From the NCBI GenBank assembly GCA_003250235.1, contig QKGY01000449.1, forward strand, positions 1 to 37,090: a stretch of 37,090 nucleotides of DNA, in the 5' to 3' direction. Positions 26,339 through 34,346 of the stretch are shown here, piece by piece; the first letter of the stretch is position 1, and each line of letters begins with the position of its first letter. A program made the translations under genes and the position numbers. The notes below the pieces were generated by a model that was not told the DNA's origin, did no database searches, and saw only the letters and a program-made list of their open reading frames with translations. Origin of the DNA: Desulfuromonadaceae bacterium (GTDB taxonomy: Bacteria > Desulfobacterota > Desulfuromonadia > Desulfuromonadales > SZUA-540).

Positions 26339-27496
26339 TCAGGGCACGTCTCCCTGCAGGTCACGCGAAAGGAACACCGAGAACACCGTCCCCCGCCCGG
26401 CTGTACTCACGAAACGGACATCTCCGCCAAGATAACTGCTGAGCAGTTTCATACTGTAACTGCCCAGTCCCCGCGCCAACCCTTTGGTGGAAAAAGAACG
26501 TTGAAAAACCTGCAGGCGGGTTTGCTCCGACATGACTCCGGGATTGTGAACCCAGAACTCGATCTGCCCGTCATCCGGCAGACGGCAGCCCAGAGTGACG
26601 GTCTCCCCGGCAGAGCTGGCCTCAAGGGCATTTTTGATCATGTTGCCCAAAATACGCCCCAGCAATGCCCGGTCACTGACAAAAGGCGTATCGATACTGG
26701 AGGGGTCCAGGCAGAGCGATTTTCCGCGGGCGGCATCATGACGGCCGTACAGCCCCGCAAGATTTTCCAGGACAAAGCGGCTTGAGAGAGATTCGAGACT
26801 GAGCGTCAACTCTCCCTGTTCGGCAGCCGTCAAGGCACGCTGCGCCTCTATTTCCTCAATGGTCTGTTCGGCGGCCCGATGAATCAGGTCAAATATCTCT
26901 TCCTTGTTGTCCGTCGGGCAGGAACGCAGCAGGTCCGCAAAGCCCTTAATGCTTCCCACCACGTTGAGGACATCGTGGTAAAAGATCCGCTCCAGGGAAA
27001 GGCGGCGTTTTTCGTGGCTGATATCGGTCAGGGCAAAAACGGAGAAATGTTCCCCCTGAAAGGTCAAAGGGGTGGCGCGCACCATGAATTCCAGAGATTC
27101 AGGATGCGCATCCAGGCAGCGGTTTATCCGGTACGGGCGTTCGTCCTCCCGCCCCGCCAATGCTTCCAGAACGGAATGTAAGGCTCCGCAGGTACGACAG
27201 ACGTCCCCGGTGCCGCACCCCTGAGCGAAGCATTCCGCATGGCTGCAGTTCAGGGCTTCTCCAGGCTTCAGCCCCCGCAGGGAGTCGACCTGCGTGAGGC
27301 CCAGCAGGTCGAGCAGAGCCTGGTTGGCGTAGACGATCTGCCGGTAATTGTTGAGAATGGCGACGACGTTGGGCAGGGCATCCATCAGATGCTTGGCCAG
27401 GAATTCTCCGGAGAAATACCCGGCCTGGCGCCGGATAACCTCGTCAGAGGCCCTAGCGGAAGGTATTTGGCTGACGGAACTCTTCTGTTTGGGCAA
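26339..27496 (-). CDS. Orphan PAS sensor histidine kinase with a cysteine cluster
   Basis: 385 residues from a TTG start (27494-27496) with GGGGGGA 8 bases upstream. Residues ~32-160 form a PAS domain (ALPNVVAILNNYRQIVYANQALLDLLG) that contains five closely spaced cysteines, Cys84, 89, 94, 100 and 103, in a CX4CX4CX5CX2C pattern. The phosphoacceptor region is FYHDVLNVVGSIKG (His174), a variant H-box. The ATPase domain has the N-box NMIKNALEAS; the usual DxGxG is HNPGV, then FQRSFSTKGLARGLGSYSMKLL, a pattern I recognise from a deltaproteobacterial kinase subfamily. There is no membrane segment and no adjacent response regulator. It lies 104 bases after the FHA gene on the same strand. The Cys cluster suggests a metal, Fe-S or redox sensor. 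Confidence 0.88.
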   Translation of the reverse strand: MPKQKSSVSQIPSARASDEVIRRQAGYFSGEFLAKHLMDALPNVVAILNNYRQIVYANQALLDLLGLTQVDSLRGLKPGEALNCSHAECFAQGCGTGDVCRTCGALHSVLEALAGREDERPYRINRCLDAHPESLEFMVRATPLTFQGEHFSVFALTDISHEKRRLSLERIFYHDVLNVVGSIKGFADLLRSCPTDNKEEIFDLIHRAAEQTIEEIEAQRALTAAEQGELTLSLESLSSRFVLENLAGLYGRHDAARGKSLCLDPSSIDTPFVSDRALLGRILGNMIKNALEASSAGETVTLGCRLPDDGQIEFWVHNPGVMSEQTRLQVFQRSFSTKGLARGLGSYSMKLLSSYLGGDVRFVSTAGRGTVFSVFLSRDLQGDVP

Positions 27497-27600: not shown

Positions 27601-28299
27601 TCAGGACTTGAAGTGAAACCGCATCCGGACCTTGCCGACCTCGACCAGATCGCCTTCCTTGAGGTACGTGTCGTCCGTCACATCCTGACCGTTGAGCTTG
27701 AGTTTGCTGCGTCCGTCTGCAGGGGAAAGGGCATACCCGAGTTTATCCCGGGTCACAAACCCGGCCGCCTTGGGGGCCAGCCAGCCTTCCAGACGAATAC
27801 CCGCCGTGGGATCCTTGCCGATCAGGGTCAGGTTGCCGGTCAACTCGTATTCGGGCTGGTCGGTCCCACCCTCGAGCACGCTCAGGATGCCGATCCGGCT
27901 GCCGGAATACGTCATGTTGTCCAGCACCTCTTTGTGTTGCCGCGTTTCGAGCACCATGGTCTTATCCATCTCCAGCTCACGGATCCCCTGCGCGGAAGGC
28001 TGCCCCTCATCCTTCTCCATCAGAAAAACCAGGGTGTGCTTGCCGATGGTGACGGCATCGTTATGGCTCAGGCCCCAGCGGGTGATTTTCTTGTTGTTCA
28101 CAAACGACCCGTTGGTGCTGTTCAGGTCTTCGATGAAATAATGACCCAGCTGCTTTTCCACCCGGGCGTGAAAACTGGAGACGGCCAGATTGTCGATCTG
28201 CAGGTCGTTCTCCAGGTTGCGGCCGATGGTCAGCTGATCCTTGTCGGTGTCGATGACCTTGAGGATCTTGTCGTTAAATTTCAATAGGATTCTCAGCAT
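27601..28299 (-). CDS. Tandem FHA-domain protein, partner of the Ser/Thr kinase
   Basis: 232 residues from the ATG at 28299 (GGAGG 10 bases upstream; the track start at 28434 lies inside the phosphatase gene). The first FHA domain (~1-95) keeps the phosphopeptide-binding residues: IGR (Arg27), SSFH (Ser42/His44) and STNG (Asn63). A linker (~100-130) holds TMVLE at 114-118. The second half (~135-232) is an FHA-like fold (LTLIGKDPTAGIRLEG, LKLNGQDV) that lacks the SxxH and Asn signature, so it probably does not bind phosphothreonine. Clustered with the kinase and phosphatase genes, it is the likely reader of kinase output. Confidence 0.88.
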   Translation of the reverse strand: MLRILLKFNDKILKVIDTDKDQLTIGRNLENDLQIDNLAVSSFHARVEKQLGHYFIEDLNSTNGSFVNNKKITRWGLSHNDAVTIGKHTLVFLMEKDEGQPSAQGIRELEMDKTMVLETRQHKEVLDNMTYSGSRIGILSVLEGGTDQPEYELTGNLTLIGKDPTAGIRLEGWLAPKAAGFVTRDKLGYALSPADGRSKLKLNGQDVTDDTYLKEGDLVEVGKVRMRFHFKS

Positions 28300-28306
28300 G
28301 ACAGAT

Positions 28307-29104
28307 CTACCTCCTGAGTTTGGAAATAAGTTTGTTGACCGACCGGACCAGACCGTTCTCCTGCATGTGTAACAGGACAGCCGTGATGTTGTCCCGTCCG
28401 CCTTCCCGGTTGGCCGATTCGACGAGGCGGGCACAGGCTTCCGAGGGGTCGTCCAGCGCGCTCACCAGCGACAGCAGGGTCTCGTCGGCCAGCATGTCCG
28501 TCAACCCGTCGGTGCAGAGCAGGTAACGGTCTCCGGCCTCGGCCGTAAGGGTTTGGATATCGACAACGAGTTCCTGGGCGCTGCCGATGGCCCGAGTCAG
28601 TACATGACGGTGGGCGGAAACGGCGGCCTCTTCAGCACTGAGGAGCCCCTGTCTCAGCTGTTCGTTGATCAGGGTGTGGTCCTCGGTCAGCTGCTCGATG
28701 ACATGATGGCGAATCCGGTAAATCCGGCTGTCACCGACATGGGCGACGACCAAGCGCTCGGCCCGGATCCAGAGAGCGACCAGCGTGCTTCCCATGCCGC
28801 GCCAGGACGGGTTTTCGCCCGCCGCACGACAGACTTCGTCGTTGGCAGCCTGAACGGCCGTTCGCAAGATATCGACAGAGGGGATGAGCGGGTCCGGGCT
28901 ATCGGGCTTTGCGGCGAGGCAATAGCGTTCCACCCGCGACTGCACGGTTTCCACCGCCAGGGCGCTGGCAATCTCGCCGGCGGCATGCCCCCCCATGCCG
29001 TCGGCGACCAGATAAAGGCCGAGGTCGTCACGCAGGGCGAAGCTGTCCTCGTTGTTGTCGCGACACAGACCGGCATCGCTCAGGCCTCTTGAGAGTATCC
29101 GCAT
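28307..29104 (-). CDS. PP2C-family Ser/Thr protein phosphatase
   Basis: A 265-residue PP2C (PPM) enzyme. Metal-binding motifs are all present: SDAGLCRDNNEDSF (Asp20), LVADGMGGHAAGE (Asp35-Gly36), LLCTDGLTDML and the C-terminal GGRDNITAVLL. It should reverse phosphorylation by the kinase encoded immediately upstream; the two genes are 3 bases apart and probably translationally coupled. It precedes the FHA gene by 7 bases. It is soluble, with no regulatory domain. Confidence 0.93.
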   Translation of the reverse strand: MRILSRGLSDAGLCRDNNEDSFALRDDLGLYLVADGMGGHAAGEIASALAVETVQSRVERYCLAAKPDSPDPLIPSVDILRTAVQAANDEVCRAAGENPSWRGMGSTLVALWIRAERLVVAHVGDSRIYRIRHHVIEQLTEDHTLINEQLRQGLLSAEEAAVSAHRHVLTRAIGSAQELVVDIQTLTAEAGDRYLLCTDGLTDMLADETLLSLVSALDDPSEACARLVESANREGGRDNITAVLLHMQENGLVRSVNKLISKLRR

Positions 29105-29107
29105 GGA

Positions 29108-31648
29108 TCAGCCTATTTCCTGCAGGCACTGCTGCACCTGCTTCAGGACCAGAGAAGCACTGGCATAACGCCTGGAAAGAGCCTTTGCCAGCAATTTGTC
29201 GACGATTTCCACGCAACAGGACGGGGCTCCGGGCTGGATTTCCTCCAGCTTCTCATAGGAACCGTTGGCGATATTGTACATCAGGGCAGCGATGCTCTCG
29301 CCCTGAAAGGGTTTTTTCCCACTCAGCAGTTCGTAGAAGACGCAGCCAAGCGAAAAGAGATCGGAGCGTCCGTCCACTTTCTTACCGGCCACCTGCTCGG
29401 GCGACATGTAGCTCGGGGTGCCGAGAACGACCCCCGTCTGGGTCTGGGAGCTGGAGATCACCCGGGCAATCCCGAAGTCGGTCACCTTGATCTGCCCGTT
29501 TTCCATATACATGATGTTGGCCGGCTTGATGTCGCGATGGACCACATCGTGCTCATGAGCGTATTCCAGGGCGGCAGCCACCCCGGCTATGACCTGAAGG
29601 ACCTTGGACGGAGCCAGCAGGTGTCCCTTTCGGCAGTACTGGCTCAGGTCCTTGCCCTGCAGCAGTTCCATGGCCATGTACGCCATGTCGTGATCCTCGC
29701 CGACATCGTAAATGGTGACGATGTTCGGATGGTTGAGGCGACCCGCCGCCTCGGCCTCCCGGAAGAAACGCTCCTTGACCTCCGCAAGGCGCTCCGGCTC
29801 GATAGCCCCATAGCTCAGAGTCTTGATGGCCACCTCGCGATTGATGCGGGGGTCTCTCCCTAGATAGACCGTCCCCATGGCCCCCTGACCCAGCTCGCGC
29901 AGCACCTCGTAACGCCCCAGAGTCGGCTTGACCCCCACGTTTTCCAGGACCATGGTGGCGTCGTGGCGGTTGCTTCCTCCGAGCACCACGGGATTGGCAG
30001 TCTGCCGCATCTTGTCGAGCCGGGAGCGGACATCCTTGAACTTTCCCGCCTTGGCAAGATGTTCGTAAACCGCGGCGGCCTTGTGAAACAGCCGCTTGCG
30101 TTCGAAATCGAGGCCGAGATTGTAAAGCAGCTCCTTCACCGAGGGGTCCTCCACCGGGCACTTCATGAATTTCTCGAAAGCCAGGTCCAGCATCCCCTGC
30201 CCCTGGAAGGTCAGCCCCTGCATTTTGCTGGTGGTGATGTTCTCGTTGCGGCTTTTGATCGCGGCCACCCAGCGGGTCGCAACCAGCAGGGAAAACCCGA
30301 GCAGGGTGAAAAGGGCCGGAGGAAAGGCCGCCAGCCAGACCCCGAACTGCAGAAAGACCCCGGCCACCAGCGCGTACCAGGTCGTCAGGAAGACACCCAG
30401 GATCAGAGCCCCCACCTTCAGGCTCACGCGGGGGAGAACGAAAAGAAGAAAAAAACCGAAATAGAGCAGAGCGGCGGTTTCGGCGATCCACCCCCAGGGG
30501 GGGAGGATCACGTAGCTGCCGGAGAGGAGCCGGTCAAGAATGCGGGCAGCCACCACCACGGAAGATTCCTCGCCGATGCCGGGAGTGTTCATCCGGGTGG
30601 CATCGGAACCGGTCAGCCCCACCAGGACTGCCTTGTTCTTGAAGGCATCGGCAGGCACCTTGCCGTCCAGAAGTTCGGAGGCCGAATAGAGCGGAAGGCC
30701 TTCGGCGGCGGAGACCGGCCCGACCGGCAGACGCAATGCTCTGTCGGTCGGGATTTTCATCCAGCCGAGCTGAATCCCGTAAAAGTCGCTGCGGTTACGT
30801 ATGACCTTCAGGTCACCGAGGGAAAGACCGGAATAGGCGGCGGCCATCCTCAGGCCAAAGGAGGGGACGGCATAATGGTCGAAAGAGACAAGCAGGATAT
30901 CCCGGCGCATTTCGCCATCCGGATCGGGACGCAGCAGCGTATGCCCATAGCCTGCCGAGGCGGACGCTGTCAGTTTAGGCAACGTGAGGGAGGAAACCCG
31001 GCACCCGGGATCATACCAGGCATACAGGGGATTCTGCAGGGACTTCAGGAGCTCACCGGCGGTTTGCCGTGCATCCGAGGCCGCAGGGAAGAGACCGCGC
31101 GAAAGAGTCTGGGGAGGGTTTTCTGGCTTTCCGTCGGCGTCGGCGGCGGCAGCCCCAAGCCGGACCGGCAGCACGACCGTCCCTTTGGCCGCCGCCCTGG
31201 AGAGCGCTTTGTCACCATCGAGCGTCTGCAGAGAGGTCGCAAGGGAATCTTCCACATACGTTCTTCCCTGCGCGGAAAGCAGACCGGGGGTCTCCAGCAA
31301 TCCCTCGGCCAGAGAACGGAGGGCGTCGATCTGTGGTGTGGCCTGGCGATGGGAGAGTGGCAGGAAGAGGCCCGTGGCTTTGGCCTCCGAAGCTCTGATC
31401 CGTTCCACCAGGTCGGCCAGATAGGTGCGAGGCCAGGGCCAGTCCCCCAGTGCGGCAATGCTGACCGGATCGATCGCCACCACGGCGACCTTGCCGGACA
31501 GGTCGGCCTGCTTTTGCCGGCAGAGCCGGTCATAGAGCGGGTAATCCGCTACGCGCAGAAAAGGGAGATCCAACAAGGTGCCGGAGAGAATCAGCAGCAA
31601 AAGCAGGCCCTGAATGGCCCATGGTGAAAAAAGCTTTCGTATCTTCAT
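29108..31648 (-). CDS. CHASE2-TPR transmembrane Ser/Thr (Hanks-type) protein kinase
   Basis: 846 residues from the ATG at 31648; the track start 78 codons upstream lies in what is probably the promoter and leader. Order: an N-terminal membrane helix (FSPWAIQGLLLLLILSG), an extracytoplasmic CHASE2 sensor (~30-380; VAVVAIDPVSIAALGDWPWPR), three to four membrane helices (~390-480), a TPR-like helical linker (~490-550), TMVLE at 565-569, then the kinase domain (577-846). The kinase has the glycine loop GQGAMGTVYLG, Lys609 in AIKTL, HRDIKPANIM (Asp706), DFG (Asp724) and SPE, so it should be active. It is the first gene of the kinase-PP2C-FHA operon. CHASE2 ligands are unknown. Confidence 0.92.
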   Translation of the reverse strand: MKIRKLFSPWAIQGLLLLLILSGTLLDLPFLRVADYPLYDRLCRQKQADLSGKVAVVAIDPVSIAALGDWPWPRTYLADLVERIRASEAKATGLFLPLSHRQATPQIDALRSLAEGLLETPGLLSAQGRTYVEDSLATSLQTLDGDKALSRAAAKGTVVLPVRLGAAAADADGKPENPPQTLSRGLFPAASDARQTAGELLKSLQNPLYAWYDPGCRVSSLTLPKLTASASAGYGHTLLRPDPDGEMRRDILLVSFDHYAVPSFGLRMAAAYSGLSLGDLKVIRNRSDFYGIQLGWMKIPTDRALRLPVGPVSAAEGLPLYSASELLDGKVPADAFKNKAVLVGLTGSDATRMNTPGIGEESSVVVAARILDRLLSGSYVILPPWGWIAETAALLYFGFFLLFVLPRVSLKVGALILGVFLTTWYALVAGVFLQFGVWLAAFPPALFTLLGFSLLVATRWVAAIKSRNENITTSKMQGLTFQGQGMLDLAFEKFMKCPVEDPSVKELLYNLGLDFERKRLFHKAAAVYEHLAKAGKFKDVRSRLDKMRQTANPVVLGGSNRHDATMVLENVGVKPTLGRYEVLRELGQGAMGTVYLGRDPRINREVAIKTLSYGAIEPERLAEVKERFFREAEAAGRLNHPNIVTIYDVGEDHDMAYMAMELLQGKDLSQYCRKGHLLAPSKVLQVIAGVAAALEYAHEHDVVHRDIKPANIMYMENGQIKVTDFGIARVISSSQTQTGVVLGTPSYMSPEQVAGKKVDGRSDLFSLGCVFYELLSGKKPFQGESIAALMYNIANGSYEKLEEIQPGAPSCCVEIVDKLLAKALSRRYASASLVLKQVQQCLQEIG

Positions 31649-31928: not shown

Positions 31929-34346
31929 TTAACCGGATTGGTTTTTCTCCGATTCTTTGTTCTGGGCAAATTTGCGAAGGTTTTCAGCCATTTCCCGCAG
32001 CCGTCTATCCACCAGGAAATTGACCGTCCCTTCCGGCCAGGTACCGTCTTCACGAAGAGAACCGGCCGGAGTCCCCGTGAGGATTTCGATCCCTTCATCG
32101 ACGGACGAAACCGCCCAGACATGAAAGGTCCCCTCCCGGACGGCGGTGATGACCTCCTCCTTGAGCATCAGGTTCTTACGGTTCTGCACGGGGATCACCA
32201 CCCCCTGTTCCCCCGTCAGTCCCTTGGCCTTGCAGACCGCGTAGAACCCTTCGATCTTTTCGTTCACGCCGCCGATCGGCTGAATCTGCCCCCGCTGATT
32301 GACCGACCCGGTGACGGCCACTCCCTGGCGGATGGGAACCCCGGACAGGGAGGACAGCAGTCCGTAGAGCTCTGTGGATGAGGCGCTGTCCCCCTCTACC
32401 CCGGCATAGGACTGTTCAAAACAGAGGGAGGCCCCGAAGGAGAGGGGCTTATCCTGGGCAAAACGCCCGCCGAAGAAGCCGGAGAGAATGAGCACCCCCT
32501 TGTCGTGGATGGGACCGGAGAGTTTGGCTTCCCTTTCGATGTTCACCACCCCGCCCTTGCCCAGATAGGTGCGCACGGTGAGCCGTGACGGCTTGCCGAA
32601 AGAGTAATCCCCCATGAGATACACCGACAGGCCGTTCACCTGCCCGACCACGGCCCCTTCCGTGTCCACCAGCAGCGTATCCTCCTCGATGAACTCCTGG
32701 AGTCGCTCCTCCATTTTGTTGGAACGGTACACCTTGGCTTCCAGCGCCAGATCGACGTGGCCTTTCTCCACGCAGGTTCTCCCCTGGGTCGTCGCGTAAT
32801 AAGACGCCTCGCGAATGATGTCGGCCAGGTCGATAAAGCGCGAAGAAAAACGGTTCTGGTCTTCTATCAGGCGGGCGGAATACTCTACCATGCGCGCCAC
32901 GCCGGTCGGATCAAAGGGAAGCAGTTCCTCGTCGCGGCAGTGCGTCGCCACAAACTGGGCATACTGCTGGATGTTTTCCCAGGTATTTTTCATCATCCGG
33001 TCGAAATCGGCCTTGACCTTGAAAAGTTTCTGGAAATCGGGATCGAGCTGGTAGAGCAGATAGTAGAGAAGCGGCGTGCCGATCAGGATGATCTTGCAGT
33101 TCATGGGAATGGGCTGAGGCTTGAGCGATACCGTGGCGATCAGGCGGTACTGCTCCATCATGTCCTCGATTTTCACCTCTTTATTACGGATACAACGTTT
33201 AAGCGCTTCATAGGAGAAGAGGTTGATCAGAACCTCCCGGCAGTCAAGAATCAGGTAGCCGCCGTTGGCGCGGTGGATCGCCCCGGCTTTGATCATAGTG
33301 AAGTTGGTTGTGGCGTTTCCCATCTGGATGATGTGCTCGATGCGCCCGAAGAGATTGAAATAGGTGGGGTTGGCCTCATAGACGACAGGCGCCCCCTTCT
33401 GCTCGCTGTTGTCGACGAACAGGTTGACCTTGTAGCGTTCGAATACCGAATCCTGGTCGTTGGCGCGCATTCCCGGCAACGTGATCTGCGGTCCCTGGCT
33501 GGGCCGCAAGGCATCGATGTGCTCAAGAAGGTCCTTTTTGCAATTGGCAAAATGGGCCAGGACCTTCTCAACGTTATGGAACTTCTCCTCCAGATCGTCA
33601 AACAGATGGCCGATTGCCGCCATGAGCACATCTTTTTCCATCTGTTCGGTGGCGGCGCGCAGTTTTTTCTCGAGCTCCCGCGCCCGGCGCAGCACTTCAT
33701 TCAGCTGCTCCTGAAGGACAGCCCCCTTCTTCTCCAGATTGCCCCGTTCACTGTCCGAGAGTTCCTCGTAGTCCTGCTGGGAAATGGGATGTCCGTCCTT
33801 TGTGGGAACCAGCACCAGGCCGCTGACCGTGCGCTGAAGAATGAAGCCCTCTTCGTTGACCTTCTCCTCCAGGGCCTGAAACAACTTCTTGTGTCGCTCC
33901 TGGGACTCGGCGGCCAGACGGTTCTTGTGCTGTTCGTATTCCTTGCTTTCGAAGACCTTGGGGATCTCCTCGGAGAGACGGGCGATAAGAGCGTCGACAT
34001 CCTTCTGCAGCTCTCGGCCCTTGCCTGCCGGCAGACTCAGATGGGTCGGGTGCGCCCCGTCCGCAAAGTCGTACAGATAACACCAGTCGTCCGGTACCGT
34101 TTCACCGCTGGCCCGGGTATCGAGCATCTTCTTGATCGTGGAGGAACGTCCGGTCCCGGGCTCGCCGAGAACAAAAATGTTGTAACCGCTGTTGGGGATA
34201 CCGAGGCCGAATTCGATGGCCGTCAGGGCGCGAGCCTGCCCGATGGTTCCTTCCAGACAGGGGATCTCGGCCGTCGTCTTGAATTCGAACTGGGCCGGAT
34301 CGCAACGCCAGGTCAGTTCTTCCGGTGAGAGCCGATAGGTGTCCAC
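31929..34346 (-). CDS. Lon-family ATP-dependent protease (AAA_32 / LonB-like type)
   Basis: 805 residues from a GTG start with GGGAGG 6 bases upstream. The N-terminal AAA part contains the P-loop GEPGTGRSS (61-69), with Arg in place of the usual Lys, which is normal for this subfamily. A long coiled-coil stretch (~130-260; EQLNEVLRRARELEKKLRAA) separates it from the rest of the AAA module (GGYLILDCREVLINLFSYEALKR). The C-terminal Lon protease domain carries the Ser-Lys dyad, Ser654 in EGDSASS and Lys697 in GGVNEKIEGF, 43 residues apart as in E. coli Lon. It differs from classical Lon in lacking the N-terminal substrate domain. It follows the E2-like gene by 3 bases and so is co-expressed with it. 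Confidence 0.92.
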   Translation of the reverse strand: MDTYRLSPEELTWRCDPAQFEFKTTAEIPCLEGTIGQARALTAIEFGLGIPNSGYNIFVLGEPGTGRSSTIKKMLDTRASGETVPDDWCYLYDFADGAHPTHLSLPAGKGRELQKDVDALIARLSEEIPKVFESKEYEQHKNRLAAESQERHKKLFQALEEKVNEEGFILQRTVSGLVLVPTKDGHPISQQDYEELSDSERGNLEKKGAVLQEQLNEVLRRARELEKKLRAATEQMEKDVLMAAIGHLFDDLEEKFHNVEKVLAHFANCKKDLLEHIDALRPSQGPQITLPGMRANDQDSVFERYKVNLFVDNSEQKGAPVVYEANPTYFNLFGRIEHIIQMGNATTNFTMIKAGAIHRANGGYLILDCREVLINLFSYEALKRCIRNKEVKIEDMMEQYRLIATVSLKPQPIPMNCKIILIGTPLLYYLLYQLDPDFQKLFKVKADFDRMMKNTWENIQQYAQFVATHCRDEELLPFDPTGVARMVEYSARLIEDQNRFSSRFIDLADIIREASYYATTQGRTCVEKGHVDLALEAKVYRSNKMEERLQEFIEEDTLLVDTEGAVVGQVNGLSVYLMGDYSFGKPSRLTVRTYLGKGGVVNIEREAKLSGPIHDKGVLILSGFFGGRFAQDKPLSFGASLCFEQSYAGVEGDSASSTELYGLLSSLSGVPIRQGVAVTGSVNQRGQIQPIGGVNEKIEGFYAVCKAKGLTGEQGVVIPVQNRKNLMLKEEVITAVREGTFHVWAVSSVDEGIEILTGTPAGSLREDGTWPEGTVNFLVDRRLREMAENLRKFAQNKESEKNQSG

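Follow-up and report, generated by a model that had tools for sequence, protein, structure and literature searches.

A CHASE2 receptor kinase and the FHA protein of its operon carry the same class of threonine motif, suggesting a membrane-sensor phospho-switch

A CHASE2 Ser/Thr kinase and an FHA protein encoded by one operon of a Desulfuromonadaceae bacterium carry the same class of threonine motif, T-hydrophobic-hydrophobic-[LIVM] (TxxPhi), and this class is conserved in both proteins among their orthologues. The operon lies in the window analysed here, which is the whole stretch of 37,090 nucleotides from contig QKGY01000449.1. We consider it probable that the operon encodes a membrane-sensor phospho-switch, in which the first FHA domain (FHA1) would dock on a phosphothreonine (pThr) of the kinase linker, Thr114 of the FHA protein would then be phosphorylated and compete for that domain, and the PP2C phosphatase would reset the system. 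The features discussed below, in window coordinates, are:

29108..31648, minus strand: CHASE2-type membrane Ser/Thr kinase, 846 aa (Pfam CHASE2 1.1e-34, Pkinase 3e-59)
28307..29104, minus strand: PP2C-family phosphatase, 265 aa, flanked by the kinase and FHA genes (Pfam PP2C_2 1.7e-20)
27601..28299, minus strand: FHA protein, 232 aa (Pfam FHA 2.8e-20; Yop-YscD_cpl in 2 stretches)
29942..29956, minus strand: kinase TMVLE, residues 565-569, proposed phospho-docking site (slot 2), inside a segment of pLDDT <50
27946..27960, minus strand: FHA-protein TMVLE, residues 114-118 in the context EMDKTMVLET, proposed FHA1 self-ligand phosphosite, in a low-pLDDT block
29975..29995, minus strand: remnant of kinase motif slot 1, NPVVLGG, residues 552-558, with Pro for Thr (orthologue alignments)

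The three minus-strand genes are tightly spaced and follow one another in the order kinase, PP2C, FHA protein, forming one operon; the kinase starts with an ATG at 31648 and the FHA protein with an ATG at 28299. On the same strand, a gene for a LonB/LonC-like AAA protease lies upstream of the kinase (window 31929-34346) and a PAS histidine kinase gene lies downstream of the FHA gene (window 26339-27496). The order kinase-PP2C-FHA is also found in Desulfuromonadales, other Deltaproteobacteria, Elusimicrobiota and Beta- and Gammaproteobacteria, and in most orthologous loci the PP2C gene adjoins or separates the two partners. Several beta- and gammaproteobacterial loci have a gene for a CHASE2-class III nucleotide cyclase after the FHA gene (L113 8687-10921, L116 8700-10943), and the C-terminus of this cyclase is conserved (PPGENWDGV). 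The arrangement hints at an output that involves cyclic nucleotides. We also asked whether the cyclase carries the motif in addition to the two partners; its cytoplasmic linker contains no TxxPhi, and the idea was rejected.

The kinase is composed of an N-terminal transmembrane (TM) segment, a CHASE2 domain, TM-like segments that extend to about residue 457, helix pairs at approximately 482-550, a linker, and the kinase domain from about residue 577. Pfam and hydropathy analysis show the N-terminal TM segment, the CHASE2 domain, the further TM segments and the cytoplasmic Hanks kinase domain expected of a CHASE2 receptor Ser/Thr kinase. In the AlphaFold2 model, residues 552-571 have pLDDT <50 between confidently predicted flanking domains, and no strand is formed in the motif segment. 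The first-pass annotation had correctly placed the motif immediately before the kinase domain, in what is seen here as the 552-571 linker, but it had also described the position as juxtamembrane, which is wrong: by hydropathy the last TM-like segment ends near residue 457, about 108 residues ahead of the motif, and the helix pairs lie between. As a guess, these helix pairs may derive from TPR repeats (Pfam TPR_2 E=0.24).

The FHA protein consists of FHA1 (approximately residues 1-95), a linker that contains the motif, a short helix at 120-127, and a second FHA-like domain at approximately 136-232. The motif therefore stands behind the first FHA domain, where it had been annotated. AlphaFold2 assigns pLDDT >90 to most of both domains and <50 to residues 99-115. 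All of the canonical pThr-binding residues are present and invariant in FHA1 (G26, R27, S41, H44 and S61-T62-N63-G64). The second domain has GK in place of GR and lacks the SxxH, which points to FHA1 as the likely reader. The best solved Foldseek matches of FHA1 are GarA/OdhI, with TM-scores normalised by target mostly of 0.8-0.9; the PknB-GarA complex (6i2p) is among the matches, and the fold also resembles that of Bdellovibrio DgcB. In a Desulfuromonadales family (f8) the second domain is missing while the motif is retained close to the C-terminus (DKTMILDTxKQRELLDKNR), and the motif therefore belongs with FHA1.

TMVLE occurs once in each partner, as reported initially. The accompanying claim that one 9-base DNA word encodes the start of both copies holds for the first 8 bases, which are identical, and fails at the last (ACCATGGTC vs ACCATGGTG). 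The codons are ACC ATG GTC CTG GAA in the kinase and ACC ATG GTG CTC GAA in the FHA protein, and the 8-base match looks like codon usage rather than recent DNA duplication. In shuffled proteins of the same composition, any 5-mer common to the whole kinase and the whole FHA protein arises with P ~0.17, so the pentapeptide coincidence alone is weak; confined to the two linkers, shuffles give P ~0.0005. Given the whole-protein value and the differing ninth base, identity of the pentapeptide or of the DNA word was rejected as stand-alone evidence. Exact sharing of TMVLE was likewise rejected as the conserved property, since across orthologues the motif class alone is kept.

We aligned orthologues of both proteins, the comparison proposed with the first annotation, and the Thr and its flanks are retained in both while the linkers vary, the unit retained being the TxxPhi class. 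Among 47 non-redundant kinase-FHA pairs, with TxxPhi required at the expected place in each partner, the motif is present in both proteins in 41, in the kinase alone in 3, in the FHA protein alone in 3 and in neither in 0. The expectation that orthologous pairs would share the motif is borne out for the class, though not for the exact pentapeptide. Among 51 FHA proteins filtered to <75% mutual identity, Thr fills column 114 in 47/50 (94%), with an entropy of 0.42 bits there as against about 3 bits in the surrounding linker; D or E occupies position -2 in 45/50 and L, I, M or V occupies +3 in 46. The seven close FHA orthologues have invariant T114, M115, L117 and T119 in a linker that is variable in length and sequence around them.

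On the kinase side, column 565 is Thr in 44/53 (83%) of an alignment of 55 non-redundant kinases, making it the best-conserved residue of the linker motif; positions +1 to +3 are almost always hydrophobic and the linker is otherwise variable. The pattern T[VMLI][MVIL][LIMV] was found within 40 residues upstream of the kinase domain in 54/64 FHA-linked kinases, where shuffling gives an expectation of 1.5 and a maximum of 6 (300 shuffles). Many kinases contain a second TxxPhi slot (slot 1) about 12 residues upstream of the motif, and at its column 553 Thr is found in 25/55 and Gly in 20/55. Where Thr has been lost from one slot it is usually present in the other: Elusimicrobiota kinases lack the Thr of slot 1 (GAVFGG) and keep slot 2 (GTVMI), and a few kinases without slot 2 retain slot 1 (L047 TVLL, L048 TIAL, L111 TVML). 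These counts are not independent trials because the sequences share ancestry; what they indicate, at the level of sequence, is that the Thr persists where the surrounding linker does not. Among other Ser/Thr kinases taken as a control, 5/42 had at least 45 residues upstream of the domain and 0 gave strict matches, a set too small to add strength because most of these kinases begin directly at the kinase domain. An earlier, mixed control set gave matches in 2/10, one of them (L124) a truncated kinase of the family itself that had been placed among the controls by mistake.

Several genomes separate or vary the partners. In two Gammaproteobacteria (L101, L102) the PP2C-FHA pair has no adjacent kinase, and a CHASE2 kinase encoded elsewhere in the genome has both slots (DTIVLG/ATMVLD in L221, DTLVIG/ATLVLD in L222). 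In a third gammaproteobacterial genome with such a kinase-less PP2C-FHA pair (L097) no full-length CHASE2-kinase match was found, but a receiver-domain (REC) Ser/Thr kinase (L261, 824-2212) has PEMEKTMVLDADK in its pre-kinase linker and the FHA protein has a motif of the EFEKTMIIKP type; the REC kinase appears to display the same code on a different kinase type. Three betaproteobacterial FHA proteins (L092, L094, L095) lack the motif, and a full-length CHASE2-kinase match was not found in their genomes either. These kinase absences come from metagenome-assembled genomes, and as support for the pairing of kinase and motif they are suggestive only. Geobacter-type genomes keep the kinase, the PP2C and the Thr in both slots, the second slot having drifted to TIIA in several of them, and a search for the dual-FHA orthologue in these genomes found none. 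Since the kinase Thr is kept there without that orthologue, another reader may serve these kinases, perhaps the product of the different, convergent FHA gene that often adjoins the PP2C gene. This convergent gene (L192 9805-10812, minus strand, and similar loci) encodes DTE[KQ]TIAPG directly before its FHA domain. In some Desulfobacterales kinases (L217, L218) the Thr is replaced by Ala or Ser, although it is kept in their FHA proteins, and one genome encodes two CHASE2 kinases without good motifs (L219, L220) together with an FHA protein that has one (L050). A second, shorter kinase-FHA pair was also observed (L044 3995-5697; L042, C403, from the same genome as the window; L039; L040). At the C-terminus of its small FHA proteins stands ETLCLTPEDLER or RETVYILKDQE, and in the L044 kinase SEATIILP precedes the kinase domain.

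The switch proposed for the operon would begin with a CHASE2 signal that controls the kinase, which is predicted to autophosphorylate one or two TxxPhi Thr residues in its disordered pre-kinase linker. FHA1 of the partner would bind the linker pThr, with its hydrophobic residue at +3, and the FHA protein would be held on the kinase. In this docked state the kinase could phosphorylate Thr114, the corresponding residue of the linker that directly follows FHA1, and pThr114 would then compete for FHA1, within one molecule or from one molecule to another, so that the FHA protein is released or rearranged. Release or rearrangement may alter binding by the non-canonical second FHA-like domain or by FHA1 itself, and removal of both phosphates by PP2C would constitute the reset. 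Phosphorylation, FHA1 binding, the order of events and the reset are the steps that we infer. The +3 hydrophobicity, the disorder, the intact FHA1 pocket and the GarA/OdhI-like FHA1 fold are compatible with phospho-dependent docking, and the kinase motif shows the sequence features expected of PknG-type docking, taken as a mechanism and not as homology, namely a conserved Thr, an FHA-compatible +3 residue and a disordered segment beside the kinase domain. A PknG-GarA-like relay would be the most economical reading of the paired motifs.

Other explanations were weighed against this relay. The pentapeptide as a chance coincidence is extremely improbable: the whole-protein P ~0.17 would allow it, but both sites are conserved across several phyla, and the orthologue comparison refutes it. 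It is somewhat unlikely that both TxxPhi sites are a mere substrate consensus of the kinase, which would phosphorylate the FHA linker and, for autoregulation, its own, with FHA docking through an activation-loop pThr instead of the pre-kinase linker. Docking in PknB-GarA runs through the activation loop, and the activation loop of the operon kinase has conserved Thr residues (A3 invariant T256, T258 and G259). Catalytic preference alone, however, leaves the hydrophobic +3 and the twin redundant slots unexplained, and PknG-type docking ahead of the domain is an equally good precedent (PMC8546545).

The FHA-linker pThr could instead be the ligand of FHA1 in a second molecule of the protein, so that oligomers or a scaffold would form and no kinase docking would take place. 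For DgcB, binding of the tail between molecules is the favoured mode (PMC6733907), and the Thr is better conserved in the FHA protein than in the kinase; this reading would leave the matching kinase motif unexplained, and we regard it as unlikely. Still more doubtful is that the kinase TPhiPhiPhi is an element that acts on the N-lobe, by autoinhibition or by addition of a beta-strand, and has nothing to do with FHA binding, the likeness of the FHA linker arising by convergence. Such an element would account for the near-fixed distance of the motif from the kinase domain and for the hydrophobic residues that remain where Thr is lost (GALVLD in L218; GAVFGG in slot 1 of Elusimicrobiota), whereas the segment is modelled with low confidence and no strand, Thr is its most conserved residue, and the same motif class stands behind the partner's FHA1 with even higher Thr conservation.

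The docking relay may also extend, though we put this forward tentatively, to a widespread receptor-kinase circuit in which the CHASE2 kinase and its effector have an FHA ligand in common, present on the kinase in one or two redundant slots, and in which other kinase types (the gammaproteobacterial REC-Ser/Thr kinase and the second Desulfuromonadales kinase-FHA pair) appear to use the same code. Receptor and effector, carrying the same ligand, would therefore compete for one FHA pocket. Bacterial Ser/Thr kinases seldom bear a readable substrate address, and a conserved phospho-motif common to kinase and FHA partner would provide a sequence rule by which kinases could be matched with their cognate readers in bacteria other than Actinobacteria. 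A CHASE2-sensing Ser/Thr kinase pathway, without assigned function in the literature found, becomes testable by two point mutants (kinase T565A and FHA T114A).

Several known systems share parts of this arrangement. CHASE2-Ser/Thr kinases of cyanobacteria, with CHASE2 fused to a Hanks kinase, were listed in 2007, and the accessible part of that paper describes neither a PP2C/FHA operon nor a docking motif (PMC2176072). We found no paper pairing CHASE2 kinases with FHA proteins through this operon or motif. The PpkA/PppA/Fha module of the type VI secretion system (T6SS) resembles the operon in joining a membrane kinase, a PP2C phosphatase and an FHA protein, the last of which (Fha1) is phosphorylated at Thr362 (PMC3953482), but the sensor domain here is CHASE2. 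A T6SS link for the operon was rejected, VipB being absent from 4/7 tested operon-bearing genomes and remote from the operon in the other 3. In Rv1747 of M. tuberculosis a linker pThr lies between two FHA domains, and the protein here likewise combines FHA1 with an FHA-like domain; Rv1747, however, is an ABC transporter, and the residues that normally bind pThr are missing from the second domain here. The two domains of Rv1747 mediate its phosphorylation by the cognate PknF (Molle 2004, as cited in PMC5549992). The DgcB self-ligand, with a hydrophobic residue at -3, E at -2, T14 and hydrophobic residues at +2/+3, is recognised by the FHA domain of DgcB itself (PMC6733907), and MDKTMVL of the FHA protein fits this pattern. 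DgcB differs in its N-terminal tail, its tail-FHA-GGDEF order and its GGDEF output, whereas the operon here encodes a kinase with the same motif.

PknG of Actinobacteria is a soluble kinase with a C-terminal TPR domain, in contrast to the CHASE2 membrane receptor described here. To our knowledge, the operon's FHA protein has no link to 2-oxoglutarate dehydrogenase. The N-terminal segment of PknG is disordered and undergoes autophosphorylation on Thr, whereupon it docks the GarA/OdhI FHA domain and raises phosphorylation efficiency (PMC8546545); the phosphorylated tails of OdhI/GarA, like that of DgcB, occupy an FHA domain of their own protein (PMC6733907). The likeness to the operon lies in a Thr that sits in disordered sequence away from the kinase fold and in a Thr in a tail or linker of the FHA protein that serves its own FHA domain, the latter being predicted here. 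GarA/OdhI have ETTS before a single C-terminal FHA domain, whereas here there is no ETTS, FHA1 begins at residue 2, DKTMVLE follows it with a TM[VI]L and not an ETTS motif, and a second FHA-like domain comes after in most orthologues. The proposal of GarA/OdhI-type switching with a membrane CHASE2 sensor is accordingly retained for the FHA1 fold and the CHASE2 receptor architecture and set aside for GarA/OdhI membership, on motif position, the missing ETTS and the second domain. As read here, the operon works like PknG-GarA/OdhI, but its FHA protein is not a GarA/OdhI member.
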